Of a stretch of DNA of 64,000 nt, positions 12,171 through 62,025 are shown in pieces. A model generated the notes under the pieces. That model had not been told where the DNA came from, did no database searches, and was given only the letters and a program-made list of their open reading frames with translations. This stretch comes from Phocoena phocoena (Eukaryota > Chordata > Mammalia > Artiodactyla > Phocoenidae), in NCBI RefSeq assembly GCF_963924675.1, contig NC_089238.1, forward strand, positions 39,822,879 to 39,886,878, written 5' to 3'. Positions within the stretch are counted from its first letter, which is position 1. Each line of letters starts with the position of its first letter. A program made the position numbers and the translations under genes.

Positions 12171-12377
12171 TTGGTTGAGCTCCTAGGCCAGAGGCTTCAG
12201 AGGAGAGGCGAGAGGAGGTCAGCCCTCACTAGCAGAGGCTCCTGCGGGGAGGAGGGGAGCAGCGCCTGAATATCCTCATTTAGGGATGAATAACTCACAG
12301 GGCAGCAGGGAGGGAGGAGGAAGGTGTGGGGCAGGGTCCGTGCCCCGGCTCAGCATCCTCCCTCTCTCTGTCCACAG

Positions 12378-12641
12378 TAGCTCGATACAACCGCACCAGC
12401 TACTTCTACCCAACGTTCTCAGAGAGCTCGGAGCACAGCCATCTGCTCGTGTCTCCTGTGCTGGTGGCAAGCGCAGTCATAGGCGTAGTCGTCATCCTCT
12501 CCTGCATCACCATCGTCGTGGGCAGCATCCGCAGGGACAGGCAAGCCCGGCTCCAGCGGCACCGCCACCGCCATCGCCGTCACCACCACCACCACCATCG
12601 CCGCCGCCGCCGCCGCCGCCGAGAGTACGAGCACGGCTACG
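12378..12641 (+). CDS. BEAN1: BEAN1 membrane-segment exon
   Basis: The acceptor is ...TGTCCACAG before 12378 and the donor GGTGAGC follows 12641. It opens with ARYNRTSYFYP, which carries an N-x-S/T sequon (NRT), then the hydrophobic membrane helix, then IRRDRQARL, a classic positive stop-transfer. A tract of six His (CAC/CAT, 12581-12598) is followed by eight Arg (CGC x7 plus CGA, 12599-12622). The exon leaves phase 1 into the next. Confidence 0.95.
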
Positions 12642-15600: not shown

Positions 15601-18600
15601 AGCTGGATGTCTGGGATTGACCTGGGTCATCTCAGGATTGGGGTCTGGGCTAGGTGAGTGCCTCAGGGAAGCCTCAGTCTCCCTGAGACGCTCAGCCTCT
15701 GCGGGGCCCAAGAAAAGCAACCCAGGGAGAGAGGTGAACAGCAGAGTGGTTCGGCCTGGTCAGCTCTCAGACCTGCCCACCAGGAAATAGCCTTAACTTC
15801 CCGAGGTCTGGACAGCCATAGCGCCCCCTGCCACTGGCACTGCGAGTGGGGCCCTCCCCACAGCAACGCTGGCAGGGACGGGATCCCGGCACCAGAGCCC
15901 AGTGGCCTCGGTTCCACTTCTGTCCTCACGCACTTATTTCGTGTTTTACTCTCTCCTGAGTTTCTTCCCCAATTTCTTCCCAAAATTCTCATCCTTCAGC
16001 TGGTGCCCTAAAAGGAAACAAATCTCATTTCAGCTCCTTCTTACAGCATATGTTATTGGGTTCCTTTTTCCTAGTAGAAAAGTAATATGTGTTCACTGTG
16101 GAAAACCTTTAAAATACAGAAAATATAAAGAAGAAAATAAGGGTTCTGATCCTGTCCTGCAGACAGAGCCGCTGTTACTACGTTTGGAATATTTTCTTCC
16201 GAGAGCTTTCTCGAGGTCCATAGATAACCCTGGGACTGCACCAGCAGATAGAGTTTCATATCCAGATTGTTTCCATTCATTGTTTTATCGACGTGAGAAA
16301 AAGAGATTTGGGGAGTAGAAAGCAATCTTTGGGGTCTACAGACTATGCATGAATTCCAGCTCCACATTCTACCAGCAATGCGAGCCTGAGCCTCTGGCTG
16401 TAGAATGGAAAGGGCAACTGCAACAGTGCTGCTGACCTCAAAGAAAGATCATGAGCCCCACCCCAGACAGACAAGCCCCGCCCCTGATGTTACGCCCTGC
16501 CCTCTGAGCCACCTGGGAGCCCGTTGGAGGTGAGGAGACCTCATGTCTCAACCAGTTATCTTTGCAGTTCCCACTGTCCGCCCCCCACCTCGGCCCACCC
16601 CTCTACCAGACCTGTCAGAAACTGGGAGGCAGAGGAGCTGGGACATCCAGCCACCCTCGGCCCAACCAATAATTTGCTGTGTGGCCTCCAGCAAGGCACT
16701 GAGCCTCTCTGAACCCCAGCTGTAGAATGAGAAGATTGTACTCCATCGGCATTTCCTAAGCAGTGTTACTAGGTCTCAGAAAATAAGATTCCGTGGCCAA
16801 ATGCTGCACAAGCACAGTTGAATGTGTTTCTCAGCTGTGGGACATTTCAGAGCCTTTGATGTACTATGTGAGAAAAACAAAAACAAGAACAAACAAAAAA
16901 ACCCAGAAGAGAGTATAGTATATGTAGTCATCAGAGAAACCCCTTTTCTCCCTGGGATACCTAAAGGGACGGAGGCCTGACCTCAGAGACCGCTGTTGTC
17001 CTCATTCCCTGACACTTCCTCCCCATTTTTTGTGCCCCAGCCCTTCTCCACAGCTCAAAGCTTCCTGTTCACACTACAGTCTTCTTTCACAACTCCCCCT
17101 CTTGGCTCAAGCTGTTCTGTTCCCTCTGCCAGGCCTGCCCCTCTTCCCCTGGCTGATTTCTAGACAAGATTCAGCTCTGGGAGCCCTTCCCCCCAGGAAG
17201 CCTTCCCTGACCTCCAAGCTGGGTCAGGCCCGTCTCTGCTCCCACAGCCCCAGTACAACATCTATCAAAGCTTGTGACATGTTGCCCACTACCAGGCTGT
17301 CCACAGGACAGGCTGCTCACTACCCTGGGAGCCCCACCAGGGCAGGGCCAGCTCTGCTCCCTGTGACCCCCACGCCCAGCAGGGCACTGGTGCTCACATT
17401 CTGGGGCTGTTGCTGACGGAATGAAAGCAGCCCTGGTTGGTAAGGGGCAGGATGGTGAGTTGGAGAGAACAGAATCTCAGTGGCCTCAGGCAGACATGTG
17501 AGGACCCTCCCTGGCACCAGCCTGAGGCCCAGGCTGAATGTCCGTTCCCTGCAGTGTCCGACAGGCACACGTATAGCCGCTCGAGCCACAGGACACGCTA
17601 CACCTGCAGCCCTGCCGAGGACTGGCCTCCACCCTTGGACCTCAGCTCTGATGGGGACGTGGATGCCACAGTGCTCCGAGAGCTGTACCCAGATTCTCCA
17701 CCAGGGTAAGGAGGCCTGAGAGGGCAGGGCTCTGGGCAAGAATCTCCAGCCCCCATGGGAAACAGCAACACCCCAGATGGCATAAAGGCAGAAAACATCT
17801 CCTCACCCTCCTGACCAAGCTGGTCCCTGTAAGGTGGGGCATGACTCAGCAGATGTCCCCGAGAGACACTTGAGAAGGAAAAAGGAAGAGACGTTCAGCT
17901 CCTTCAGGCTGGGTGAAGAGGTGAGGTGGAAGGTCCAGGCCCCAGCCCCTTAGCTTGTGCCCCCGAAGCCCAAATCACATCCACTGGAATAGGCATCCTT
18001 GTGTCCAGACTGCACTCGTGGCCAGCAGGTGGCCCTGTCCCATGGGGGGGACTCTTCCCTGGGGAGCCTTTGAGTCCTATCCTGTCCTGCCAGCCACCCT
18101 CAGGCACAGCGCCACCAGTTTGTACATGAAAAGAGGGGTCTGGGCCTCTATCACTTCCCCACCAGGAGACCACGTGGGCCCCACAAACAGCCCCATCCTC
18201 TCCATCACACTTTACCCTCTGCCCCCAGGGGCACTGGGAGGTATGAACTTTGCCTACAGGTGGGTGCTTTTTCACCCTGCAACCATGGGCCCCAGGGACA
18301 CCTTCCTAACCCTGGAAGGGCCACTTTGGGGTGAGTTGAGACCCAGAGGTGTCTAGCAGCCTGAAGCTGCTCCCACCAGCACCACCCACGCTCGGTGGCC
18401 AGCCTGCAGGTGCTCCAGCAGCAGCGGCTACAGTTCTGAGCGATCTGAGACCCAGAATTCGGTGGCTCACTCACTCACGTTCACACGGAACACTGGGGCT
18501 GAGTCAGGGCCAGAATCCAGGTCTCGGTGGTTCTGGGGTGCCCCTCCCCAGGGAGGAGAGGGGTTTCATCGGATTCAGTGTGACAAAGGCCTGACCTGGT

Positions 18601-19057
18601 CCATGCCGGGGCAGCTTGTCGCTGCGGCTAGGCCCCCGGCCCTCGGGGGCGACCCCGCCACCCACCACTGAGGCCGGCTTGCACAGGGCCCTGAGGGAGC
18701 CTCTTCTCTTGCAGTTACGAGGAGTGTGTGGGGCCGGGGGCCACTCAGCTGTACGTCCCCACAGACGCCCCACCCCCCTACTCGCTGACCGACTCCTGCC
18801 CTGCGCTGGACCGCGCCCTGGATGCGGGCAGTGGCCGCAGCCCTGGCCAACACCAGCAGGCACAGAGACCGCAGGGCCAGAGTGGCTTCCACACCATTTC
18901 CGTGGACACCCTGCCGCCTTATGAGGCCGTGTGTGGGGCCAGTCCCCCTCCATCGGGCCTGCTGCCACTGCCGGGACCAGAACCAGGGCCGAGGAGCTCC
19001 CAGGACTCGCCCACCCCAACCCGGGCCCCAGCCTCAGGCCCAGAGAGGATTATGTGA
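12378..19057 (+). CDS. BEAN1: BEAN1, NEDD4-binding membrane protein (5' end missing)
   Basis: Three exons (12378-12641, 17555-17705, 18715-19057) splice in phase into the C-terminal part of BEAN1, ending at TGA 19055-19057. BEAN proteins are single-pass membrane proteins bound by the HECT ubiquitin ligase NEDD4. The sequence shows a hydrophobic segment (12442-12529), a basic His/Arg tract, then an acidic/proline-rich cytoplasmic tail with two PPxY motifs (PPPY 18770-18781, PPY 18914-18922) that fit NEDD4 WW-domain ligands. The splice phase needs one base from an upstream exon. The short N-terminal coding exon I remember in human (about nine residues) was not found here and probably lies before position 1. 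Every junction has GT/AG ends and continuous reading. Closeness to the human protein, including the ...APASGPERI- ending, makes the identity firm. Confidence 0.95.
12581..12622 (+). repeat. Coding trinucleotide tract, His6-Arg8, in BEAN1
   Basis: CAC repeats run into CGC repeats in frame and encode six histidines followed by eight arginines. As remembered, the human protein has a longer His run and a shorter, interrupted Arg run here, so the tract seems to vary between species. Confidence 0.85.
13060..13245 (-). mobile_element. L2 LINE fragment
   Basis: The plus strand 'CTCTGCACCTTTGCATATGC' through 'GCCTGGCTCAAATACCACC' is the antisense L2 3' end. It lies in a BEAN1 intron. Confidence 0.75.
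14380..14510 (+). mobile_element. MIR SINE fragment
   Basis: Contains 'GTTGCTTAACCTCTGTGAG' and 'TGTACAATGGGTACACGG', with a 'AGTAAGTGCTCAGTACATG' end. Intronic. Confidence 0.7.
14811..15147 (+). repeat. (GGGA)n-rich polypurine tract
   Basis: About 335 bp of nearly pure G/A on the plus strand, made of GGGA units mixed with GAGA and GGGGGGAAGG blocks that repeat at longer spacing. The open frames across it (Gly/Arg/Glu or Ser/Pro/Leu) are compositional artefacts. It lies in a BEAN1 intron. Confidence 0.95.
15148..16995. other. BEAN1 intron, no gene seen
   Basis: Non-coding, with scattered old repeat-like pieces (an A-rich segment near 16100-16140 and a MIR-like core near 16660-16730). No supported exon was found. 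Confidence 0.4.
17000..17300 (-). mobile_element. L2 LINE fragment
   Basis: The plus strand carries 'CCAGGAAGCCTTCCCTGACC' and an adjacent 'CAGCTCTGGGAGCCCTTCC' as in antisense L2. Intronic and about 250 bp before the next BEAN1 exon. Confidence 0.6.
17555..17705 (+). CDS. BEAN1: BEAN1 cytoplasmic-tail exon
   Basis: The acceptor is CCCTGCAG before 17555 and the donor GTAAGG follows 17705. It encodes VSDRHTYSRSSHRTRYTC..., then an acidic stretch SSDGDVDATVLRELYPD and SPPG. Phases (1 in, 2 out) match both neighbours exactly. Confidence 0.95.
18715..19057 (+). CDS. BEAN1: BEAN1 terminal coding exon with PPxY motifs
   Basis: The acceptor CTCTTGCAG precedes 18715 and the first complete codon gives YEECVGPGATQLYVP. 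PPPY at 18770-18781 and LPPY at 18911-18922 are the WW-binding motifs. The protein ends PASGPERIM and stops at 19055-19057. The C-terminal residue is Met here and Val in the human protein as I remember it. Confidence 0.95.
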
Positions 19058-19117
19058 GGGACCCAGCGGCCGGTCCTGCCAGCCCCTCAGAGCTGGGCCA
19101 CACCTTTCAGGCACGCA

Positions 19118-19305
19118 GGGGCGCGCACACGCACGCACACACAGAAGCGCACACAGATGTGCACACATGGCACTCCCACATGTACACACAACTTGGACAC
19201 ACGCACACACTGATGCACCCATGTGCACACACACATCCAGACGCCCCACACGTGTGCAGACATGCACACACATAGGCCCCCCCTCACACACACACACACA
19301 ATCCC
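19118..19305 (+). repeat. CA-rich low-complexity region
   Basis: Imperfect (CA)n with GCAC/TGCA interruptions. It lies in the BEAN1 3' UTR about 60 bp after the stop. Confidence 0.85.
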
Positions 19306-20907
19306 ATCTGCGAAGGTTTCATTATAAAGGAAGCTCTCCCGACCTCCCAGTCTCCTCCCCAGCCTGTCAGTGATGCCTCTGTAGCCAATGCAGGGAGAAG
19401 AGAGGTGGAGAAGGGACCAGGGCTCATCCCGCCCTCTCCACCGGCCTGTCTGCCCTGCCCGCACCAGGCAGGCTGTGCCCAAACGCTGATTCTGCCTCCA
19501 AAACCTGCTCAACCGTCCCAGGTAGCTGCCTGCCCCGACCCCACCCCAGAGCAGCTGGCCCTCCCGGCTGGCAGGACAGGCCTCAGTGAGGCTCAGCTCC
19601 GCAATGTCCCCATCTCCCAACCCCAGGGCAGAAGAGCCACAACATCAACACCCTGCCACTTATAGGGTAAGGGACCCGGGTCTGGGGGCTCAGGCACAAC
19701 CTGGAGACCCTCGCAGCCCGCCTTGCCCATCCCTCGCCCAGTGCCCTCAGTCTGGTGGTGCTAGCGGAATCATCTCCGAAGCCCCCACCCCAAGCCACGG
19801 GTGATGGGCAGGGCCCTTGGTGGGCATGCAGTGGTGGTAGTGGGTCACAGCTGTGCCCACGTCAGTCCAACCACTGCCCAGGACTGAGGGTCTTCAAAGA
19901 AGATGAAGGGCTGCCGGGTACAGTTCTGAGGAGAGGAGCAGCCCCTCGCTAAGTACATGCCCAGCCGTCCATTACGGCCTAAGCTTGAGTGGGCTGGAGT
20001 CAGACCCCAGAAGCAGTGCTGTGCTCCTGGGCGGTGGCGCATAGTGGGGAATTGTGAGCCAACGCATTCTGGTCCTGCCCTCCATGGTGTTTGAGGAGGC
20101 GAAATGAAGGGGATGTGGGCCCCACTATGCCACTGCAAAAGCACCAGTGGCTACATTTTGGCCTTGCTGCCGGGGGTACCACGGAAGGGGATATGTGGGC
20201 CTGGTGGTAGAGACTCAGATCTTGGCCCCTGAATCCCAGCAATTTCCATCAGAGACCATGCAAGTAACAGAGCTAATTCCTGAAGACCCAGCCTGCCAGA
20301 GGGCGGCAGCCCAGCATCTGTGAAGAGCGTCCCTGCCAGCATCACCAGCGGTAGAGAGTTCTCAAATCCACCCTGCCTCCCTCCTCACCCCCTCCTTAAA
20401 CAAGAGCACCTCCAACCATCCTCTCCCCCACGTTTCAATTCCTCCAACAAAGGGCTAAGACAATTTAGTAATCCCTTTCTGAAAAGGGGCAGCAAGGAAG
20501 GCAATCGTGAATTTTATTTTCTGTAGAAATAGAACTTCTTCTGGTGCAGAACTGAAAGGAATCCACCCAGAGGTTCTGTAGCATCCTGGAGCCCCTGACT
20601 CCGCCCCAGGGAGGGACCTTGTTTACAAGCAGTTCTGTCCACCTTTGTGGTATACTGTTTTCTAGGCAAAAAATATCTGTCTATTGTACTGTATAGCCTT
20701 TAAATGCACTCCAGGGATGAGACTCTTTTAAGAAACGCATCCTGCTTCTGCAACCCTAGAGAGTGCTGGGGGCTCCGGAGGGGGGTGGGCGCGGAAAAGA
20801 TAAAAATCCCTACATGCTCATCAGTGTTTGAGGGATGGAGCTGAACAGCTTTTCTTGTTCCTGGATTAAGCGCTAAATAAGCAACAATGTATCTTTTCTG
20901 TGTTCAA

Positions 20908-20913
20908 AATAAA
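20908..20913 (+). terminator. BEAN1: BEAN1 polyadenylation signal
   Basis: Canonical AATAAA about 1.85 kb past the BEAN1 stop, followed within 20-30 bases by a plausible cleavage region. It is the best candidate downstream of the gene. Confidence 0.6.
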
Positions 20914-20939
20914 TATATCAGTAACAAACGTTGCAAGAA

Positions 20940-23900
20940 GTAATACGATCAAGGAGCCCCTAGTGGGGCTGGCACCATCTGAAACTTGTAAGGAAGGGAA
21001 ACGGTAAATAGCAGCAAACGGAAAATGTGTTACTTATCTCAAAATCAGCAGCCATTGAAGCCTTTTCATTCTCCTAGTGACAGGGATATTTGCGAAGCTA
21101 GTGACTTACAGGAGTTAATTTTTTTTTAACCTCTCTAAAACATGGCATCATTTCTCCAAGACTTGGCCAGTGTAACTGCCACCAAGACAGGCCATAAACT
21201 TCAAGACTCCAGGAACACCAGGGACTGCACTTTGACAGCAGTTGACTCTCCACACGCTGATGGCTTTGAAATGAGTTGTTTTCTCCCCCTCTGCAGAAAT
21301 TCTCTTCCTGCCTCTGCTTTCCATAAGACCTTGGCTTTGGTCGTTGATCCCTTGGGGACAGAGGCCGGTTCCCTTCTTCTGTCACTATTCCCTCCCACTC
21401 GAATTCAGGCAGAGTCCACTAGCATAGTCCTAAACCCCCAAGTGCCCTAAAGGTGGGGTGCGATCCTGAAGTAAGGTACAGCCCTGTCCCACCAGCCCCA
21501 CTGCAAGCCCACACTGCCACCTGCTGGCTGTCTCCCATCACTGTTCAAAGCAAATGAGTCAGCCCCTGAAACTCCCTTCTTCCACTTTCTAACCCACTGC
21601 CTGCGGACACTCATTATTGAAGACAGAACTTGTTTTGGTTCTGGGCTTGTCCTCCACCCTTGGGATGTTCCATGAGGTTTAAATCATTCAAGTACCCCAT
21701 TTTCAGGAATCACTCCTACCTCCACATCTCTCTGGCCACAGCCAGACACCTAAATGCCCCTTGCTGTGTGCAAAATAATCACCCCCCTGTCCTTCCAGAC
21801 ACCACTGTGTACGGCTCAGGTGCCACCTCTGTGCTCTGAGACCCCTGCTCCTGGGAATGAATGTAGCAGCCTTCATGGTGACGGTGCCCAGGCCACGTGG
21901 TGCCTGTGGTGACCCCAATCAGAACCACGCCACGCTGACACCCAGTTCCAACAGCAAATACACTCAGGATCCCCCTGGCCCAAGGCACTATCGAGCTCGG
22001 TGTTTTCCACCTCCTCCATCCACAACGTGCCTTGCATCCACATATGGTGCCACATCCAAGGTCCTTGTGCACACTCCTACAAGGAGACTGGCTGCCTCCC
22101 TCTGCCAGGGGCCTGAGGGGTCAGGCCAAGGAGAGCACCCTGGGCCCCAAGGAGATGGGAAGCGAAGTCAAATTCCCAGGACGGTGGGAACGGGAGGAAG
22201 GGCAGGACCAGGCCCTGGGACAGGATGTGGACGCAAGGGGCTGATGAGGAAGGTGACCCCGGGAGTACCACCACAGAGTGGGCAGTGAAACCAGGAAAGG
22301 AAGGAAGCCCATGCAGGGTGTCATCATGCTGGTCACCACTGTGGGCAACTGAGCTCCACCCCCTTGGCAAGCACACACAGCTCTCAGACTCTCAAGGGTC
22401 ATTGTCTGAGGCTGCTCTTCAGTGAATGTTAATCCCTGCCCCCATGTGCGCTGAGCAGGCACCTCTGGCCAAAGAAAGTCTTCAGACAGGGAAGATGCAG
22501 CTGCTTGCTAATGAGGCCACCGCCGCGGTCAGCACAAGGTGCCACCGGACGAGTAAGCACGGCCTCCAGACAGGGCACCCACAGCACCTGCCACACGTGA
22601 GCAGCAGAATCACCCGAGGGAGGGAGGAACGAGGGCTGATACCAAGCACGGCCGTCCAGAGCCTCCCGTCAGAACACCCACTGGCTTGCACCAGCCAAGC
22701 CCACCCACGTATACACACAGGGGTCTCTCATACCGACTTCCTAGAGAGACCCTCGGGCGCGCCCGTATGCAGCATCACGCAGCTCACGCCACCTGAGGTC
22801 TGTGTGCATTGGCTCAGATGGCTTCACTGCGCACACACTGTGCCCCTCACACTCAGAGCTCACACACTCAGGGGTCCCTCATGCACACCCCAAGGGCACC
22901 CATACTCACGCGCAGGCGTCATCATCGGTGTCCCCCAGAGACTGACTAGGTTGGGGGCATGAGCAATGGAAGCACAGGCAGCGTTACCATCTGAGAGAGC
23001 AAATCCTCTGTCCCGGCTCTGCTATGCTCGACCTCACGGCGCCCCTCCCCAAGCCCAGGTGAACTCTCTCAAGTAGGACCAATTGCCTGGGGCAGGCCTG
23101 GTGCTTCTGAGCAGGGAGGGGGCGGGGCATGCCTTTGCCCCCAGGGTTGCAGCCCAGCTGTGCCTGCTCAGCATCTCTCCAAGGAATCCCAGGTCTGCAG
23201 GGCCTCAGGCCCTGTGATCACAGCCTCAGAGAGACCACAACTACGCATCCCCACCAGCCTGACTCCTGTGACCTTGAGCCAGGCCCTTTCCTTCTCTGGG
23301 CCTCAGGACCCCATCCCCCATCAGCCTATCCTAACTCAAAGTACCCGCCACAAATCTCCAGCATCCCCTCTCCTCCCTCTGCCCCTGCGTTGTCCCCAAA
23401 GCAAGTCACCCTAGCAGGCAGAGAAAGCAGGTTCTCACTAAGGCACTCACTCCCCTGAGGGCCCAGAAAGTGTGAATAATGCGATTAACACTAAATCCGA
23501 CAGTTCAAGAGAAGCAGTGGTCCAATGTGGGGAGGAAGCTGGCATTGGAGAAGCAGGGCTGACCCACCTGCGAGAGGGCAGGGAGGGGAATGGATCCAGG
23601 CAACCTGCCAGCGCTCTCCCCCCATGATCTTGGACCACCCTGGAGACACTGGGGTGGAAGGCAGTTCACAGACATGACGGGGTTCCCAAGAGCCGAGGAT
23701 TAAGATATCCAGAATAAGTGAAGTGGTTAAATCATAGGTAACCAAAAGCAATAGGAGAATCACATGGGAGGGGGGGTTAAATTGTGTGTACCAGTTTGTT
23801 AAACTTTGGTTTAACATCTCCAGGCCCCTCCTCAGAGAGCAAATGAGGCCAAGGAGAGAGACAGAGACTAAGAAAATTAAAACCCTTTTGTTTTAAACCT

Positions 23901-24045
23901 CCCCTGGACCCGATTCCATTGTCTGGTGACCAGCCCTTCAAGATAATTCAGTGGCCTGGGACCCATCCCCAAACCTGCCACTTCTATTCGGTGATCTTAC
24001 AAATCTTTGGTATTATGGAAAAAGCATGGCCTTGGGTATCAGATA
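20940..24045. other. Intergenic stretch, no gene seen
   Basis: Between BEAN1 and the SPATA2-like gene. GC-moderate, with many short frames but no exon with splice signals and no recognised protein. Small MIR/L2-like pieces may be present. Confidence 0.4.
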
Positions 24046-24049
24046 GACT

Positions 24050-24542
24050 TGGTGTAGTAAGCTGAATAATGGCCCCCCAAAGATGTCCAGGTCCTGTTCC
24101 CCAGAACCAGTGAATATGTTACCTTCCATGGCAAAGGGACGTTGCAGGTGTGATTAAGGACCTTGAGATGAGGCAATTATCCTGGATTGTCCAGGTGGGC
24201 CCAGTGTAATCACAAGGGTCCTTATGAGAGGGAAGCCACAGGGTCATAGAGAAGATGTGATAAACTGAAGCAGAATGAAGAGAGAAGTGAGAGATTTCAA
24301 GATGCTATACTGCTGACTTTGAAGATGGAGGAAGGGGCCACAGCCAGGGAATGCAGGTAGCCTCCAGAAACTGGAAAAAGCGAGGAAACGGACTCTCCCC
24401 TAGAACCTCCAAAAGGAACCAGCCCAATGAGACTGATTTTGGGCTTCTCACCTGTAGAATTATAAGATAATAAATTTGTGTTGTTTTAAGCCATTAAATT
24501 TGCAGTAATTTGTTACAGCAGCAATAAGAAACTAAGATACTT
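24050..24542 (+). mobile_element. MaLR-like solo LTR
   Basis: Begins TGTAGTAAGCTGAATAATGG and ends 'TTACAGCAGCAATAAGAAAC' after 'AAGATAATAAATTTGTGTTG', which is the LTR polyadenylation region. Middle sections ('GTGATTAAGGACCTTGAGAT', 'AATCACAAGGGTCCTTATGA') are typical of old mammalian LTRs. No internal proviral genes. The subfamily is uncertain. Confidence 0.7.
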
Positions 24543-26459
24543 GGGTTTTAATCCCAGCTCTTACCCTCCCTGCCTCAGTCTCCTCATTCATAAAATGGGA
24601 GGAAAGGGGATTTGGCCTAGTGATGGACAAGGGCCTCTCTGGCTCTCTTTGGCCCCAGGCTGTCAGGATGACAAACGACCACCAGCATGCTCCCATCCAC
24701 CTTGGCCTGCACAGCCCTGACCTATGTCTCCTACCCAGAAGGGTGGTCAGATGTGACCTGGACTAGTTACCTAAACTTGCTGAGGTTCAGGATCAGATGA
24801 ACTAACGTGTGTGAAAGAGCAGCATCCCCACCACTGGGCCTAAAAAAATGACTAACCTAGACCAGCCTCCAGAGGGAGAGTTGCTACTCACTGGGAGACC
24901 CATTTCCAAGTAGCACTCCCATGAGGAAGTAAGTTCCCATCCAGAGGGGTAGGAACCGCCCTGGCCACAGAGCTCAGAAAAGATTGCAGGGGGCAGGGGA
25001 GTCAGGGGCAGGAAGCAAACAGACCCCCAGGTGTGGTGCGCCCAGGTCTGAGGCCGTGCTCCAAGGCCAAGCACCAGGCAGATGCCCTTCCTGATGATTG
25101 GAGGGGCAGGAGGCCAGCAGAGTCTCACAGAAAGCAAAGGATGGTCAAGAACCAAGTCTTCCTGGGCTGTGTTACTACAAGGTCACAGCCAGCTCCTGCA
25201 CACACACACACACACACCCCAACTGGGCTCTCCAGACTGTGAGCCACCAAGAGCAGGTGCTTTGTCTCATTTGCCTCTGAAGTCCCCGGGCTGGTGTGCA
25301 ACGGGCCAGGCCACCTGCTCAAGGACGACACTGCCGCAAGCACCATATGAGAACATTGAAAGGACCCAGGTCCAGGAAGTTGGGAAACAGAGCACAGGTT
25401 GCCCCCTCCTAGAAACTCACACCCCCAGTGAGCTCCCACATGAGAGGTCCTAAAGCCAAGAAGCCTAGAGACCTTACTTAATCCAGTGGTTCCCAATGCA
25501 TTTGGCCATAGGAAATCTTCACTCACGTAAGACTGATTAAAGCCCCAAACAAATGCTCCTCGCTGGAGCACACTTTGAGAAATGCTGACCCACATGGAAC
25601 GAGTGAGTCACTGAGTGGCTGAATGAATGAGTGAATCATCACTGAATTAAGTTGTGGGTGAATGGAAGGAAGGGAGAATGGGAGAGAGGGAGAGAGGGAG
25701 GGAGCAGTGGAGGGAGGGAAGGCTTGATGGGAGAGTGCATAGGTGATTGTACCCATCTCAATTCCTCCAAAAGCTGTCCCTGACTCAAGATCTGGGTATA
25801 AATAGTTTATGTGGGAGGTGATCCCAGGAAGCACAGTGAAGGAGTCAGGTATTAAGATGGGGAGGGAGAAGAGTCAACACAGATGCATCAATGAGCAGGT
25901 TATTGCTGTGGGCAACCGGGGCGATCCACTGGGGACCCTCTAAAAGACAGAGTAGAACACACCTCAGAGCTGTCCCACCAAGGACAGGAAGCTGGGGTTT
26001 CTATCCACTGACGCTCCTTGGTTGGCTGAGGGTTGCCCCTGGGTGTTAATTCCCTGGCACTTGCAGCCCGCACACCAGCCAAAGGCGGCTCTCAAGCAGG
26101 AGGCGTCAGGAGCCTTCGCAGGTGACATCAGGGTGGGCTGAGGGTGCCGGGCAGCACGGGCTGCGACCGCTGCAGAGGGGGTGTGGAAGGATGCAGGCGC
26201 TGCTGTGCTTTCCCACTTGCTCTTGGGTCAAGGCGAGAACCCAGACTGACCTCGGCTCTGCTCCACTGGGAGGAGATGAACAGAGCCCCAGAGTGACAAG
26301 CTGTGGCAGGCCACACCGTGCACAGCTTTCTCTTTTGCTAACACAACTTCCTCCTCGGCTTCCTGATTGAGCTGTGGGGCGGGACAGAGGCAGGCCAGCC
26401 TGGGCCTGGCCTGGGAGGCCCACCGGACTCTTGTCCACATCCAGTCTCTCGGAGCCGCC

Positions 26460-26801
26460 ATGAGCCGGCCCCGACCCCCAGGCCCAGAAGAGGATGCTCT
26501 TGAGACCCTCCTAGATGACCTCATCAGCTACTACCTGGACAGGGCAGGGGAGGGCCGGCTCGGGGTCTGCAGGCAAGCAGCTCTCACCTGCAGGGCCCAG
26601 CAGCTGCTGGTCACAGGGGTCCCTCCTCAGCTCTATCTGCCTGAGGATGTGGCCCCTGATCTGGGGACCACTCACTCCCAGGGGGCTCCCAGCTCTGCCC
26701 AGCACATCTGCCACAAACTGGTGCGGGCACTGGAGTTCCTAGAGCTGATCTCCGTCAACCTACTCCTGTTTCCCTGGAGGAAGGAAATCAGGTCCCTGAA
26801 G
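26460..26801 (+). CDS. SPATA2-like gene, coding exon 1
   Basis: Encodes residues 1-114, starting MSRPRPPGPEEDALETLLDD, a helical N-terminal half of the PUB region, and ending ...EIRSLK with donor AAG/GTAGGC. Any upstream non-coding exon is not identifiable by eye. Confidence 0.85.
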
Positions 26802-28571
26802 GTAGGCACCGCCATATCCCGGAGAGAGGGGGTCTCAGGGAGGGACCAGGGCTGTGCCTCTGGGTCTCGGGGAGGGACAAGGGCTGTGCCTCTGAGAGGG
26901 GGAACAGTGTGTCGTCTGTCATGCCCACTGACTTTGGTCCCATTTTACAGATGTAGAAACTGAGGGCTAAAAGAGGTTAATGCAACTTACCTGCGGTCAC
27001 CAGATAATAAGCAACCCAGACAGGACTCGAACTCAGGCAGTGCATCTCCTAACCACTAGGCTGTACTGCTTCTCTAAAGACACAGCACCAAGGAGCTCAC
27101 AAGAAACAAGGGAAAGATTTTGGCTGTGGAAAGCCACTGGAAAGGTTTAATCTCTTCCAGCTCCAGGCCAGGATTATTGGGCTGGAAGCCAGGATACCAG
27201 CTGGCTCAGTCATTCTCCTGCTGTGTGACTTGAGACAAAAGTCCTGCCTCTGGCCTCAGTGTGCCCTTCTATAAAATGGGACAGGGGTGACATGACTGCG
27301 GGCCAGGTTTCCATTTGGCCCCATGCCCTGGCCCACCTGCTTCTCAGGAGCCTCTGTGCCCTGGACATCAGCCCTTGGTCCTGCCTGGCCCCTCTCTGCC
27401 ACTCTGCTGAGACGTGTCCCCCTCTAACAAACAACCCTGTTTGTTCCAGACATACACAGGGAACTTTGTCTACTGGGTGCAGCCTGTGCTTTCTGAACAC
27501 ACACTGCAGACCATTCTGGGCAGGCTGGGCTACATGGCCACCTCCGAGGCCGAGTTTTCACTGGTCCAGGCCAGCAGCGAGGAGGACACCAAGCAGATGG
27601 TGTTTGAGATCTTCCTGACGAGAGTCATGTGTGAGGCCGTTCTCGGAACCTCAGGCAGGCAGCTCCTCGGGGCGGGCAGAGAGAAAGCGGACGGGCCCCA
27701 CTGCAGGCCGAGCTCAGAGAGAGGGCTGCTGAAGACCCACAAGGGCCTGCAGGAGGCCCAGTCAAGCCGAGGCCCCCCAGCAGGGGCGAGGACTGAGAGG
27801 GCCCTGGCCGAAAGCCCTGATGGTCAGCGCTCTCTGCCTGTGGTCTTTAGCCTGCCTGAGATCTCAATAGCCCCCGGCAGCCCCCTCACTGGCCCCCTGG
27901 TCTCCTTGGGGCCCCAGCGCCACGCCAGCACACGCTCGGACAGTGAGGAGTTCCTGACCTGCTACAGCGACCTTGTGCTGCACCAGACACCCTTGTTCCC
28001 CAGGGACCATCCCCTGAGCAGCCTGAAGGGAAAGCAACTCCAGAGCCCAGGCCTGGGGCCCAGCCCACCTCCAGGGGAGGCAACTGCCCCCGCAGGTAGC
28101 AGCAGCGAGCAGCCCCTGGTCCCCAGCGCAGCTCCTGAGAGAAAAGGGGTCACCATTCCCGGCCAGCTCTGCCTGGTGCCAGGCCCCCAGTTGTCAGAGA
28201 ATTCCTTGGACCCAAAGCCAGAAGCACAGCTGGAGGTGGCCGCCCCTGGTACAGAAGCTGCACCTCCAAATGCTTCCTCTGAGATGGATGAGCTCTGTGA
28301 GTACCTCGCCCATCTCCTCAGACCCCCAACTCCAGCAGGCCACCCCGGGGGCTCCCCTGGCCCAGGGGTTGAGGAGAACGGACAATCAGAGCCTCTCATG
28401 AGGCCAGAGCCAGCCGGTGAGGGTGGCAGCCCAGACGGTACAATCACTCAGTTCTGGAGGTCTCCTCAGGCCCCCTCTCATGTACAAGAGCCCCCCAGTG
28501 CTCACTATGTCCCCCCGGAGGGGATGGAGGTGCCAGCTGCCACACGAGGATACTACACGAGCAACAGCTGA
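26460..28571 (+). CDS. SPATA2-family PUB-domain protein (third paralogue)
   Basis: Two exons (26460-26801 and 27450-28571) join in phase 0 into a 487-residue protein. The start ATG sits in a near-perfect Kozak context (GCCGCCATGA) and is the first ATG in frame. Residues about 60-180 match the PUB domain of SPATA2/SPATA2L: FPWRKEIRSLK at 104-114 continues into TYTGNFVYW at 115-123, and FEIFLTRVMCEAVLG at 166-180 closes the domain. In SPATA2 this domain binds CYLD and bridges it to the LUBAC complex in TNF signalling. A similar role here is inference. Residues 181-487 are Pro/Ser/Gly-rich and probably disordered. I see none of the C-terminal Cys-rich zinc-binding region I recall in SPATA2. It differs from both SPATA2 and SPATA2L as I remember them. 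No frameshift or stop breaks it, so a pseudogene is unlikely. Confidence 0.85.
26802..27449 (+). other. SPATA2-like gene intron with MIR pieces
   Basis: 648 bp with GT...AG ends and a pyrimidine-rich TTTGTTCCAG acceptor. It contains a MIR near 26935-27075 ('TTTTACAGATGTAGAAACTG') and a second MIR-like core near 27180-27290. Confidence 0.75.
27450..28571 (+). CDS. SPATA2-like gene, coding exon 2
   Basis: Encodes residues 115-487, beginning TYTGNFVYWVQPVLSEHTL. After the PUB domain there are two segments that stand out from the low-complexity tail: an acidic SDSEEFLTCYSDLVLHQTP near 27940 and a helix-like EMDELCEYLAHLLR at 28281-28322. It ends GYYTSNS, with TGA at 28569-28571. Confidence 0.85.
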   Translation, partial: TYTGNFVYWVQPVLSEHTLQTILGRLGYMATSEAEFSLVQASSEEDTKQMVFEIFLTRVMCEAVLGTSGRQLLGAGREKADGPHCRPSSERGLLKTHKGLQEAQSSRGPPAGARTERALAESPDGQRSLPVVFSLPEISIAPGSPLTGPLVSLGPQRHASTRSDSEEFLTCYSDLVLHQTPLFPRDHPLSSLKGKQLQSPGLGPSPPPGEATAPAGSSSEQPLVPSAAPERKGVTIPGQLCLVPGPQLSENSLDPKPEAQLEVAAPGTEAAPPNASSEMDELCEYLAHLLRPPTPAGHPGGSPGPGVEENGQSEPLMRPEPAGEGGSPDGTITQFWRSPQAPSHVQEPPSAHYVPPEGMEVPAATRGYYTSNS

Positions 28572-28734
28572 GATTGTCACCCCTGGACGGCACAGGGGCA
28601 GACACCTGACTAAGCCGATTGCTCTTCTGCCAGGAAGGTGACACTTGGAGAGACGGTGGATCTGGGACCACAGTGGGGACAGCAGCCAAACCCACAGCTT
28701 GTCAGCCACAGGGACAAACCTGCTAATCCCAGCT

Positions 28735-28900
28735 GGTCTCAGGTCCCAGCACTGCCACCTATAGACTGTGTGACTTTGGGCCACTCACTGCACCTCTCTG
28801 AGCCATGTTTCCTCGTCTCAAAGTGGGTGTGGTGTCAGATCTACCTCACAGGAGGCTAAGAAGAGTTAATGAGGTGAGGTGTGCGTAGTGCTGACCTCAG
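28735..28900 (+). mobile_element. MIR SINE
   Basis: Contains 'GACTGTGTGACTTTGGGCCA', 'CTCTGAGCCATGTTTCCTCG' and 'GAAGAGTTAATGAGGTGAG'. It is likely within the 3' UTR of the SPATA2-like gene. Confidence 0.75.
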
Positions 28901-29479
28901 GGGGGCTTCCTGTCCCCTTCACATACCAGCTCAGTGTGTGACCTTGGGAGAGTCACCCTGCATCTCTGAATAGTAGTTTCCCTCAGCATCCTTAAGGCAC
29001 CTGTCACAGAGCAGATTAAAAAAGAGATGTGTAGACAACCAGACGTGTAATACACCCTTAATCTGTTTAGGGTCCTGTGTCAGCCTCCCTCTTCTCTCAG
29101 CCAACTTCAGGTTGACAGAGAGCAAGGCCACAGTTGGGAGCCCAGGGTCAGCTCAGAGGCCTGCTCTGCATCCAGGGTTGGGGGCTCCATCATCTGGACT
29201 GACTGGAGTGGGGGCGCCCCCCCACCAGCCTCTCCTGCCCCCACATATGCACACATGCATGCACACCTGCACACAAGTGGGTGTGTCCAGGAACGTACAC
29301 ACACACACACAGGCAATCCTCATAAGGGCCCCAAGAGAAAGCCAAGACCCTCTCTATGGGGTGGCAGGTGGCACCTGCCCAGGGCCTGTCCCTCGGCTTT
29401 GCATCTGTGAAGTGGGGAGGATGGCCCCTGCCTCTGAGGGTGGTGGTAAAGGCCCCTTCTGGGCATACAGCAGGTGCTT

Positions 29480-29485
29480 AATAAA
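29480..29485 (+). terminator. Candidate polyadenylation signal for SPATA2-like gene
   Basis: AATAAA in GTGCTTAATAAACATTG, about 0.9 kb past the stop. The surrounding CAGCAGGTGCTTAATAAA wording is also the end of many MIR copies, so the signal may be repeat-derived. Confidence 0.4.
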
Positions 29486-29499
29486 CATTGGCGCCTGCT

Positions 29500-31140
29500 T
29501 TGCTGTCCCCAGAGCTGAGCATATGACCCCACCATTTTCAGTCCCTACATCAAGGGGGACCACAGGTGAGAAGGATTTAAGGGGCATTGGCCCCGCCTCC
29601 CTCCCAATCAGACTATTTGCCAGGCCCTACACAGGCTTTTCAAGACAAATCGGGAAGCACTCTGCACTGGGAAGAGAGAGGCACTGGCCAGTCATCCATC
29701 CGTCCATCCATCCTTCCTCCCACCCACCCATGCCGATTACTCAGCACAGCACACAGCAGTCGACACTCAGGCCGGTAAGCTGTTGGTGTCTGGAGCCAGT
29801 GAAGCGGGGCCGGGGGGCGGGGATGGTCGGAGCAGACCCTAGCCATAAGCCTCCATTCTGGGGAAGGAGAACGTCAGGAACAGGCTGGGCTGGAGACAGA
29901 GAGGGTCAGGAGCCTCGGGAGAAGGGATGAGGTGGGAGGGGGTACGGACCTGGGAATCATGGCAACCAGGGCACCTCGTCCTGGGTCTGACCTGCAGCCC
30001 CTGACCATTTTGTATTCGTTATTTTCTGATCATTAACATAATAAGCAAGCTCAGTCCCAAACCACAACAGAACTTTTGTTCTCCCCGTGTTCCTGCCCCG
30101 CAGTGCTCCCCATCTACTGGAAAGCTGAGCCCAAGGTAGGAATCATTTTTGATTTCTCTTTCTCTCACATCCTTCATCCAACTATAGCTGTCACAACATG
30201 GACCAAATCTGACCACGTCCCTCCTCCTTCCACAGAGGCCTGAGCCCCTCGACTGAGCTCCCAAGGCCTGTCACTCAGATCCTGGGAGGACGCCAGCCCC
30301 CTTCCTGGTCTCCCACCCTCTGCCCTCATCCTCCTGCAGTCAGCTCCATCCAGCTGCCAGAGGATCCTGTTAAAACCTATGTTCCATCATGACTTTCACT
30401 CTGTGGTGTTGGATTAGAATCAGAGGTATCAATATGAACTCATGGTTTTTAAATTATAGTTAGATACAGAAATATAGCTATGTGTGTGTATGAGTGGGTT
30501 AGTACACATACATATGTTTCCTAACTCTGTCCCAAGAGTGGGCTTAGAAGCAGACACCCGGTAACAATGACTACACCTGGCACTTAGATCTTGGTCTCTA
30601 AACACCACTCACTCTCCAATACAAGGAACCGGAGATCCTAGTAGTTTATTCCAGGGATGAGCAGGTAAATATCACCAGTAATAAGATGCATGGACATCAT
30701 ACATCCTTTGATAAGATGCACTGAGGGAAGACACAACATCTTTTTTTTTTTATGGTGGCATCTTGCCAAAAATGTCTAACCCCACTCTAGCCATAAGAGA
30801 ACACCAAACTCAAATTCTCTAACAGTGAGAAACCCAGCTCTCATAATCTACAGACTATTTACTTATTTGTTCAATTCTAGTATATTGGTCGATTCTGGTA
30901 TAGTTTCAGAATTGCTAAACATATCCCTGCAAGAAACACTTCTAATAACTATCTTTCAGCATTTATGTAAAATAATTTTTACCTTTACTCTTCTCGTATC
31001 CAATCAAGACACTGTTTTCCAAGGTTACTTCAGTGAGTTCTTTTCTTCCCAGCACCTTCAGTGTGGTTGTTACTTGTGATTCATCTGTTTGTATTCCATC
31101 TTCCGTTCCCCCTACATCCTACTCCACCTTAACTATTTAT
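29500..31140. other. Intergenic stretch, no gene seen
   Basis: Contains short TCCA/CATC repeats near 29695-29730. No supported exon or RNA gene. Confidence 0.4.
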
Positions 31141-31149
31141 TTATTTGGG

Positions 31150-31775
31150 GGGTAAGTGAGACATTACTATGGTTAGAGTTATACAAAATGATATATTCAC
31201 AGGAGTGTATTCCCCTCTCATCCCAGCAACCCTGATCCCATTTTTCCCTTCTCTCCAGCCTTTTCCCACCAATCTATTTAGTTTCTGGGTTGCCCTTCCT
31301 GTACTTCCTATAGCATACTATAGATACTCATTTGGACACTGCTTTCTTCCCTTAACAGTGTGTCCTGGAAATCATATCACATCCATTCACAGAGAGAGCC
31401 TCCTCGTTCTTCTTCACAGCTGTATACTATTCCATTGTGTGGATGTACCATCGTTTATTTAACCACTCTCTTGTATATGGGTATTTAGGTTGTTTTCAAT
31501 TATTTTGCAATTACAAACAATGCTGCCATAAATAACCTTGTACATATATACACCTTCATGTCCTAGAAGTGGGGTTGCTGGATTGCGATGTAAGTATGTG
31601 TGTAGTGTGTCAGGTGGTATCCTATTTCCCTCCAGAAGGGGTAAACAAATTTGCATGCCCAACAGTAACGTGTAAGAGTGACTGTTTCCCCACAGCCTCA
31701 ACAACAGGATGTTTCGATATATATGTTTGTGTGTTTGCCAGTCTGGTAAGTATCTCAGTGTTCTTTTATTTGCTG
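31150..31775 (-). mobile_element. L1 fragment (left of LTR insertion)
   Basis: The plus strand has antisense L1 sequence ('CCATTGTGTGGATGTACC', 'CAATGCTGCCATAAATAACC', 'GTGGGGTTGCTGGATTGC'). It continues at 32150 after an LTR that interrupted it. Diverged and non-coding. Confidence 0.7.
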
Positions 31776-31779
31776 TCTT

Positions 31780-32147
31780 AGTCTGTTTGGACTGCTGTTA
31801 ACAAAATACCACAGACTGGGTGGCTTACAAACAAAAGAAATTTATATCTCATGGTTCTGGAGGCTGGAAGTCCAAGATCCTGGTGCCAGCATGGCTGGGT
31901 TCTGGTGAAGGCCCTCTTCCAGATTGCAGACTGCCAACTACCCCCTGTGTCCTCACATGGTAGAAGGGGCTTGGGAGCTCTGTGAGGTCTCTTTTATCAG
32001 AGCACTAATCCCATTCATGAGGGGTCCACCCTCATGACCTAATCACCCCCCTGCAAAGGTCCCACCTCCTCATGCCATCACCTTAGACATTAGGTTTTCA
32101 ACATATGAATTTGGGGGAGACACAAACATTTAGATCATAGCATCTGC
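31780..32147 (-). mobile_element. MaLR (MST/MLT1-like) solo LTR
   Basis: The plus strand reads as the reverse of the mammalian MaLR LTR: 'TTAGTCTGTTTGGACTGC', 'ACAGACTGGGTGGCTTAC', 'CTCATGACCTAATCACC' and 'ATATGAATTTGGGGGAGAC', ending ATCATAGCA. No proviral body. It splits the older L1. Confidence 0.8.
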
Positions 32148-32149
32148 AT

Positions 32150-32785
32150 TTCTCTAATTGAGTGAATTTGAGTATTTTTCATATCTTTAAGGGCCATTTT
32201 TATTATCTTTTTTGTAAATTTTGTTTGGATATTTTTCTCATTCTTCTATTGGAGTTTTGGTTCTTTGTCCATTTTTAAGAATTCTTCACAAATATTAGCC
32301 CTTTGTGATATACACTGTGAATATTTTCTCCCACTTTGTCCACTGCCTTTTGACTTTGTTTCCAAATGAGTTTTGTCATACACATTTTTTAGTCAGATTT
32401 ATCAATCTTTTATTGTTCCTAGATTTTGAATTAAAGTTACAAAGTTTTCCCTACATCAAGGTTTTAAAGAAGAAGAATTCATTCTTCTAGTACTTGCATG
32501 GTTTCATTCTTTACATTTAGATCCCTAACCACTTGGAATTTATTTTTGGGTATGATGTGAGATATGGATCTATTTTTATCTTTTTCCAAATGGCTACTCA
32601 GTCATCTCAGCACCATTTATTTAAAACTCCACCTTTATCCCCAATCATCATTGAGATGTCACCTTTATCATGTACTTGGATCTATTTCCAGGCTCTCTAT
32701 TCTGTTCCACTGGTCTACTTGTCTATTCATGCACCAGTATCATACTGTTTCAATTATAGAAGTTTTATAGTATGTTTCAACATCT
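32150..32785 (-). mobile_element. L1 fragment (right of LTR insertion)
   Basis: Antisense L1 wording such as 'AATATTAGCCCTTTGTGATA', 'TTTTCTCCCACTTTGTCCAC' and 'CAGCACCATTTATTTAAAAC'. The 5' part of the same old L1 as 31150-31775. Non-coding. Confidence 0.7.
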
Positions 32786-32999
32786 GGATCCCCAAAGGTA
32801 GTATTTATTTAAAACTTAGCAACTGGTCCTGCTCTGGGCCCCTTCCACACGCCAGGCTGGTTATCCTCACCGCCCTAGGAAGTGAGCAATGCTCCCATTC
32901 AACAGGTAAGACAGCCAACACTCACGAGGGGTGACAACACTCAAAAACATGCCAAGTTTTCTTGGAACTCCTGGATGTCCACTTCTAGAAAACATCAAG

Positions 33000-33195
33000 C
33001 TAAGAGAAGTGGTCCCCAAACGGTGGTTCCTGGACCAGCAGACTCATCATCACCTAGAAAGTCATTAGAAAACAAATTCTCAGACCCATCCCAGATCTAC
33101 TGAATTAGAAACTCTGGGGGTAGGCCCTGCAGTCTGTGTTTTAACACGCCCAGCAGAGGACTCAGATGCTCTGAAGTTAGAGAACCATGAGCTAG
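33000..33195 (-). mobile_element. MER5A-like DNA transposon remnant
   Basis: Shows a MER5A-like order, 'GTCCCCAAACGGTGGTTCC' to 'ATCATCACCTAGAAAGTC' and 'TCCCAGATCTACTGAATTAG', ending 'TCTGAAGTTAGAGAACCATG'. These are non-autonomous hAT-Charlie elements without coding capacity. Confidence 0.65.
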
Positions 33196-34734
33196 AGCAT
33201 CCCAAAGGACACAGAACCAGGAGTCATCAGCAGCTGCAGGCCCCCTAAAACAGTGCTTCCCAATGTGTGTTCCAAGGAACATTAGCACATCTGGAGATTG
33301 TTGATGTATACTCCCCAAATGGGAGGCCCTACTGTCAAGTGAGTTTGAGAGTCCCTGGCTAAAACAAGGTTTAGAAGGTATTTTTATTGCAGGACTTCTT
33401 GACTTTATCTAGGCTAATGTACCTTGTGCATCTCAGAGAGAGTACCCAGGTGGTGTTTCCCAAATTTTCTGGACTACGGAACCCTCTTTTCTCAGAGCAC
33501 CTATTCCTATCTCCCAGGACACCTGTGTTCCACGGACCCCAGTCTTGGAGAAGAAAAAGCCAAAAAATGCAGAAATTCAAGAAGAGAGCAGTAAATGCCA
33601 ATACCCATTCTGATTCCACAAGCTTGGCTTTCTCCTAGCTTCTGTTTAATGACAGCTTTTGCCAAGTTCACCATCTTACAGAAACTAGAGGAACACAGAG
33701 CTCACCCCAGCCTTAGAGGAGCCACAAGGTTGGGGTTATTAGGAAAAGAAAGCGTGTGCCAGTGACCCTGGGGCCTCTGGTAAATAAGTAATCCACTGTC
33801 AAAGCCCAGAGACACTGGGCACAATACTATTGTTATTAGATTCTCAACGGTGGAGGGCTGACATCTCCAAGAGCTTGTCAATTATTTTAATAACTGTAAC
33901 TTCAGGGTGAAGAGGCCAAGCGGGTGAGGTTACTCATTCCGCAGATGTGTGAGCATCTGAAGTGCGCTCCCCCATCTGGCCCCAGGCTCTAGGAAAATGA
34001 GGGTGATGCAGATTCCATAGCACCCAGGGGTAGACAGGTTTTGGAAACATCTCCTACCTGCTCCCAGAGCAATAAATACCTCAATCCTTCCTTCCGCAGG
34101 TCAGATGGTGGGAGCCTGCGGGAGTCCCAGGAAGGGTCTCTGACTGATGCATTCCTCAGGCAGGGGGGCACTTCTCATCTAGGTGAGGGGCTCAGGTGGA
34201 AAGGAAGAAAAGAGGCAGGAAGAGAAAAAGAAAGGGAAAAACAAGCAGGGTGACAGCACTTCCCAGGGCCCACGTTTAGCAAGGGCCTGCCAAGCCATGC
34301 CACGCTCCTTATGGCCATTCCTGGGAGTCCCTGGGGAGTGCCTCCCTCTGCTTGAGGAACTGGGCCCCGTGCCTACCACGTGCCATCTGCCCTTTCCCTG
34401 CCCTGGTTCTCAGCAGTGTTCACAACTGCTCTGTGACCCCTGCCACCACCAGCCCTGCCTGCCACATGGGGGAGAGCAACCCTTGGTGGGCTGGGCTCTA
34501 GCCATTTCCTGTGACATCTCTGGGCCAGGAGATTTTTGTGACAAGCCCCAGCCACTGTGAGTACATACAGCATCCTCTCCAAGATGCCGGAGTGGGAGGA
34601 CAGAGAGCTCTTATGGACCCGGACATCCCCTGTTAGGAACACAGTGTTTAAAAATTAAAACATTACCTTGCTGGTACAAGGATGCTGCAGGGGCCTAAAA
34701 TCACTGGCATAGGAAGCACTCCAAAATTATCACC

Positions 34735-36514: not shown

Positions 36515-62025
<25,511 letters not shown>

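Follow-up and report, generated by a model that had tools for sequence, protein, structure and literature searches.

What is the two-exon open frame that lies between BEAN1 and TK2 in the harbour porpoise Phocoena phocoena? The DNA analysed here (the window) is a stretch of 64,000 nt, positions 39822879-39886878 of contig NC_089238.1, and an initial reading made from its letters alone (the sequence-only reading) had placed at this position an intact third gene of the SPATA2 family, distinct from both SPATA2 and SPATA2L. The frame, the domain that it encodes and the flanking gene pieces bear this out, and the locus is a new member of a known family that is already present in databases as unnamed entries. 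SPATA2 is the known bridge from CYLD, which restrains NF-kB and cell-death signalling, to the linear ubiquitin chain assembly complex (LUBAC). The reading that we prefer, at a probability of roughly 0.6, is that the third gene is a functional protein-coding paralog whose PUB domain would bind CYLD and whose tail would recruit CYLD to a site other than LUBAC.

Structure of the frame and its domain

The frame is on the + strand and has 487 codons plus the stop, with no internal stop codons. Both exons were delimited from the frame and by tblastn with relatives:

26460..26801, + strand: coding exon 1, 342 nt, residues 1-114, from the start codon to ...RSLK
26802..27449, + strand: phase-0 GT-AG intron, at the codon boundary also used by the same genome's SPATA2L (donor and acceptor) and SPATA2 (acceptor)
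27450..28571, + strand: coding exon 2, 1122 nt, residues 115-487 plus stop

The start ATG at 26460 is found in the context GCCGCCATGA, and the splice sites read AAG/GTAGGC at the donor (GT at 26802) and TTCCAG/ACA at the acceptor. The protein matches the Pfam family PF21388, SPATA2_PUB-like, with an E value of 3.4e-25 and 89.2 bits against a cut-off of 27; no ligase domain appears in the Pfam scan. The sole PDB match at E up to 1 is 5ljm, the SPATA2 PUB domain (E 7.6e-18), and the predicted fold is that of a SPATA2-type PUB. The PUB domain of HOIP/RNF31, in contrast, has at most 19% identity to it in structural alignments. Thus the earlier description of a 487-codon gene with a PUB signature joined across a phase-0 intron was correct.

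The length of the frame had also been taken as a sign of selection. Exon 2 sits inside an open run of 386 codons, the longest of any frame in 27401-28600, and this does exceed the maximum of 373 codons (mean 170) found when the 1122-nt exon was shuffled 2,000 times with a first-order model. However, because the DNA is GC-rich and its shuffles give long runs, frame length by itself is only moderate evidence, and homology is decisive. An exact 30-base piece of exon 2 occurs once in the 2.51 Gb assembly, and no Rfam matches were found over 19000-36000. The nearest named relative is a finless porpoise protein with 98% identity (8 differences in 486 residues). In the finless porpoise model the reading departs from this frame shortly ahead of the stop codon (28568-28571) and goes on in an exon that matches 29630-29773; the window has CT, not GT, at the corresponding donor, which makes this extension unlikely in Phocoena phocoena.

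Relatives in the same genome and in other species

A whole-genome search with PF21388, in which matches at E up to 1 were counted, gave six matches: the two exons of the third gene, two exons of a gene at 59.32 Mb on the same contig (C20), one exon on contig C15 and one match on contig C2. The gene at 59.32 Mb, about 19.5 Mb from the third gene, is SPATA2L; its donor AAG/GTAGGG and acceptor GCAG/ACT are at the same K/T codon boundary. The exon on C15 is exon 2 of SPATA2 and opens with TYTG directly after a TAG acceptor; SPATA2 exon 1 is partly N, and the intron position is readable on the acceptor side alone. The phase-0 K/T boundary is therefore common to the third gene, SPATA2L (donor and acceptor) and SPATA2 (acceptor). 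The match at C2:20679760-20680326 is an intronless SPATA2 retrocopy, an uninterrupted full-length PF21388 match that carries a stop codon and frameshifts.

The presence of this retrocopy, together with the long open runs that GC-rich DNA yields, might suggest that the third gene is itself a retrocopy, or a decaying SPATA2 or SPATA2L duplicate whose frame is open by chance, an alternative that the sequence-only reading had named. This is very improbable. The third gene retains the family intron, its PUB pieces are 28-34% identical to the same genome's SPATA2L and SPATA2 (28-33% to SPATA2L), its tail motifs are common to bird and squamate relatives, and the length of 487 aa is equal in the window, hippo, rhino and donkey. 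We rejected a retrocopy or chance frame on the shared intron, the sauropsid relatives and the separate SPATA2 and SPATA2L genes. The third gene differs strongly from SPATA2 and SPATA2L, as expected of old paralogs. An assignment as the ortholog of SPATA2L was also discarded, as a separate SPATA2L is present at C20:59.32 Mb and the tails are unrelated.

A first protein search, in which 7,994 candidates were scored, yielded 40 proteins, and a profile search yielded 47; each list includes one fish SPATA2 (sucker, eel) that is not the third gene. Relatives named among the cetartiodactyls and perissodactyls are from porpoise, fin whale, hippo, pig, deer, banteng, sheep, musk deer, rhino, donkey and horse, and those from other placental mammals are from several carnivores, armadillo, tamandua, sloth, manatee, elephant and tenrec. 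The sauropsid relatives are from five geckos, one boa and nine bird clusters, one of which has no name and was assigned to birds from its sequence. The proposal of a gene peculiar to cetaceans thus fails, and the third paralog appears to date back at least to the last ancestor that mammals shared with birds and squamates. Neither list names a rodent, rabbit, bat or marsupial; candidates sharing words were scored and cluster representatives are named, some being nameless, and the result is suggestive of absence from these groups.

The database labels of the relatives are "uncharacterized protein", "hypothetical protein", "spermatogenesis-associated protein 2-like protein" and "protein BEAN1", and the armadillo entry is labelled "WAS/WASL-interacting protein family member 1-like". 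The suggestion that the gene is lost or unannotated elsewhere therefore holds in part: copies are unnamed or BEAN1-labelled and look decayed in two catarrhines, but the gene is annotated in many genomes. In the open-licence literature, judging by titles and abstract openings, no paper on a third SPATA2 gene was found, and a missing rodent copy together with decayed primate copies may be why it is unstudied.

Two models depart from the structure in the window. A pig-related model (P0030, which contains the N-terminus of pig P0008) continues exon 1 as RSLK/EGSASP where the window reads RSLK/VGTAIS, and in pig the donor at the corresponding place may be other than GT. The fin whale model (P0002) duplicates the end of exon 1 and omits part of exon 2, which is probably due to faulty prediction or to damage in that copy.

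Conserved islands and predicted docking partners

Conservation was assessed in an alignment of 20 proteins, the window and 19 of the 40 first-search hits, picked to span groups; short, fused, exon-only, primate and near-duplicate entries were omitted. There are 49 invariant columns, of which 34 are in residues 85-180, 8 in 277-295, 7 in 1-84 and none in the remaining tail. Mean identity to the window was computed for the 13 other mammals and the 6 sauropsids, respectively: it is 84% and 57% for the PUB core, 85% and 47% for residues 271-300, and 50% and 10% for the linker 181-270. All 20 proteins align at the start Met. The C-terminus (TSNS, PSNS, SSNS, TSHS, PGNS, PGND or PGNG) is at a common position in 8 of 14 mammalian rows, namely window, hippo, rhino, donkey, banteng, snow leopard, armadillo and tamandua; the models of fur seal, pig, sloth, manatee, elephant and tenrec have other ends. 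The two conserved islands, the PUB core and the SDSEEFLTCYSD box, are what purifying selection acting on one domain and one short motif would leave. The motifs are as follows:

27450..27461, + strand: TYTG, residues 115-118; Y116 and T117 match SPATA2 Y114 and T115
27936..27971, + strand: SDSEEFLTCYSD box, residues 277-288, kept in mammals, birds and squamates
28278..28319, + strand: SEMDELCEYLAHLL, residues 391-404, a helix predicted at low confidence, conserved in mammals
28476..28517, + strand: (V/I)(R/Q)EPPxxxYxPP C-terminal motif, residues 457-470, also present in birds

The peptide of the box region is SDSEEFLTCYSDL, and no counterpart of the box was found in the SPATA2 or SPATA2L tails. 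In BLASTP the window tail matches bird and gecko tails in the box, with E values of 5e-7 and 1e-6, respectively, and a second match to the bird tail falls on the C-terminal EPP motif (E 5e-4), whereas the SPATA2L and SPATA2 tails give no match (best E 2.4 and 7.2). A profile comparison of tails agrees, with the third-gene sauropsid tails matching and the SPATA2-side tails not. Trees of the PUB domain were built with 39 rows, including one human SPATA2L, and with 34 rows, in which the same genome's SPATA2L was used instead; the third-gene rows are on one side of a branch in both, with support of 98/96 and 96/96. It is the tails, not the PUB tree, that decide the grouping of the sauropsid genes with the window gene. 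The SPATA2-side proteins are the 113 hits of a protein search, SPATA2 and fish SPATA2-like by name, many nameless, and no mammalian SPATA2L is among the names. The SPATA2-like proteins of bony-tongue fishes (P0139, P0140, P0143) group with an eel one, beside teleost SPATA2, and the arapaima protein is without a D-L-Y motif.

In SPATA2, mutation of Y114 or T115 reduces CYLD binding. According to PMC5031558, SPATA2L also co-purifies with CYLD, and the SPATA2 PUB does not bind peptides of the PUB-interacting motif (PIM). At the corresponding lower-wall positions the window has Y116 and T117, and Y or F followed by T is found in all 20 aligned third-gene proteins. A role as a CYLD adaptor is plausible on these residues, and CYLD binding may be general in the SPATA2 family, since SPATA2L co-purifies as well.

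For HOIP the result is different. No [DE][LMIV]Y docking motif is found anywhere in the window protein, and no D-L-Y in the mammalian and bird tails scanned; it is present in all six squamate third-gene proteins (as DLYS) and in 109 of the 113 SPATA2-side proteins. Residues 186-487 hold 4 Cys and no CxxC. Because the D-L-Y motif is missing, a LUBAC-type role in mammals is unsupported by the sequence. The proposal of a CYLD/LUBAC-type adaptor is thus to be divided: the CYLD part is plausible, with the contact residues kept, and the LUBAC part is left without its canonical docking motif, although HOIP may still be docked at a non-canonical site.

In summary of the family comparison, the third gene shares with SPATA2 the N-terminal SPATA2_PUB-like domain, the intron acceptor codon, the aromatic residue plus Thr of the lower wall and a long tail. 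SPATA2 differs in its D-L-Y HOIP motif (an Asp-Leu-Tyr-Thr PIM), missing from the mammalian and bird third-gene proteins scanned, and in its Cys-rich C-terminus, which the third-gene protein is without, while the SDSEEF..YSD box belongs to the third gene only of the two, and the tails are not alignable. SPATA2L, a CYLD interactor of less known role, shares domain, intron position and contig, but carries DLYRD and a CCDTC Cys cluster, and its tail is unrelated. The box may be a displaced HOIP motif, a possibility for which a profile comparison of SPATA2 and third-gene tails gave a best E of 0.035, not a credible match. The box presumably resembles the consensus patterns of tyrosine-based SH2-binding motifs and of an acidic CK2-type site.

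To the established gene structure, domain, predicted fold, shared intron position and two-island conservation, the preferred reading adds a mechanism. The PUB domain would bind the catalytic, ubiquitin-specific protease (USP) domain of CYLD as SPATA2 does, because the lower-wall residues important in SPATA2 are kept. Through two elements of the disordered tail, the SDSEEF..Y box and the EPPxxxYxPP motif, CYLD would be recruited to a partner. Direct HOIP/LUBAC docking would not take place in mammals and birds, where the D-L-Y PUB-interacting motif is missing, and the squamate proteins still carry it; CYLD would thus be tethered or activated elsewhere than at LUBAC.

Several points weigh against this reading, in addition to the BEAN1-labelled models described below. 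The predicted CYLD binding rests on two residues and the fold, and the tail is mostly disordered in the predicted model, with 335 of 550 residues below a predicted local distance difference test (pLDDT) score of 50. The squamate DLYS could be a gain and not a relic. In the PUB trees the sauropsid rows are not one group, a sparrow row joins the mammals, and the mammalian stem branch is long, with 1.1-1.2 changes per column, along which the CYLD interface may have drifted. Because of this mixing and the long stem, the fine branching order is unsure. In the approximately unbiased (AU) test, a grouping of the mammalian third genes with SPATA2L is not rejected by the PUB alone (p-AU 0.187); for a grouping with SPATA2 p is 0.262, a test that in effect asks if the sauropsid rows form one branch side and carries little weight.

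The long stem, the missing HOIP motif and the few Cys of the tail would also fit a conserved gene whose PUB lost CYLD binding and now has a different partner, or whose product competes with SPATA2 for CYLD and delivers it nowhere. We consider this a lesser possibility, and doubtful: the PUB core is the most conserved large block, T117 and the aromatic residue at 116 are kept throughout, and CYLD binding may be family-wide, given the SPATA2L co-purification in PMC5031558 cited above.

BEAN1, TK2 and the primate copies

The neighbouring coding pieces are as follows:

12338..12640, + strand: BEAN1 coding piece, ends approximate (tblastn with BEAN1-containing models)
17515..17739, + strand: BEAN1 coding piece, ends approximate (same basis)
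18716..19057, + strand: last coding exon of BEAN1, including the stop at 19055-19057 (tblastn)
48258..48353, - strand: TK2-type deoxynucleoside kinase exon piece (match to solved deoxynucleoside kinases, E 0.00035)
55564..55659, - strand: deoxynucleoside-kinase piece with GNIASGKTT, which we take to be the P-loop motif of these kinases

An alternative is that the two exons belong to BEAN1 as alternative 3′ exons, which would make the product a BEAN1 isoform or a read-through protein and not a free-standing one. Five models with third-gene sequence are labelled BEAN1 (finless porpoise, walrus, puma, musk deer and gibbon); those of puma, musk deer and gibbon carry BEAN1 protein sequence, and those of puma and gibbon join BEAN1 to exon 2 at 27447/27453. 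However, the finless porpoise and walrus models begin at the third gene's own ATG and have no match to BEAN1 exons, the start Met is aligned throughout as noted above, and the remaining named mammalian models are not labelled BEAN1. Moreover BEAN1 ends in its own stop about 7.4 kb upstream of the third gene, and the bird and gecko proteins stand alone. We therefore regard a BEAN1 origin as unlikely.

The window also contains tandem arrays. A minisatellite at 6972-8680, with about 82 copies of a 21-base unit (CCACGCTCCACGCTCCACCCT), is upstream of the BEAN1 coding pieces, a GAGG array (14812-15146) is within BEAN1, and a GGTGAGG/GGGAGAG array (39238-39634) is between the third gene and the TK2 pieces. 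No TGGAA/TTCCA array, of the type in spinocerebellar ataxia type 31 (SCA31), was listed in the window by Tandem Repeats Finder at the default threshold. In the human BEAN1-TK2 interval, PMC9883315 gives the SCA31 repeat as inserted at chromosome 16 position 66,490,397, the end of canonical TK2 as 66,508,003, and TK2-EXT as primate-specific.

Catarrhine hits were two. The gibbon entry, "BEAN1 isoform X2" (P0034), has BEAN1 sequence joined to a shortened exon 2, and the langur model (P0050) has exon 2 alone, with a skip; its conserved box reads LDSEEVLPCFSD. Of 44 positions invariant in 14 mammals, 12 are changed in the langur copy. In the leave-one-out baseline the counts are 0 to 4 of 44 to 48 in 13 mammals and 13 of 57 in tenrec, whose seemingly intact gene is by this count as divergent as the langur copy. 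The gibbon piece, which is shorter, departs at 4 of 27 positions; the corresponding counts are 0 to 3 of 27 to 30 for the 13 mammals and 10 of 37 for tenrec. Decay of the third gene in catarrhine primates is likely from these two gene predictions, and this group would appear to have lost it.

A wider account, which we put forward as speculative and improbable in all its parts together, is that of an amniote third CYLD adaptor in which the LUBAC motif was lost separately in mammals and birds, and which directs CYLD off linear-ubiquitin complexes through the new SDSEEF..Y docking box. Humans and mice would be without the gene, which would have made it invisible, and a relic exon would be spliced to BEAN1 in some primates, within the interval of the human SCA31 repeat.

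The locus presents an annotation problem, with the gene unnamed, labelled BEAN1 or, in armadillo, called a WAS/WASL-interacting protein, and its primate remains may matter for the reading of BEAN1 isoforms in the SCA31-repeat interval. If the third-gene protein binds CYLD, hoofed mammals, cats, whales and birds would have a regulator that may be missing from the standard models, and findings in mouse and human cells would not be fully transferable to them.
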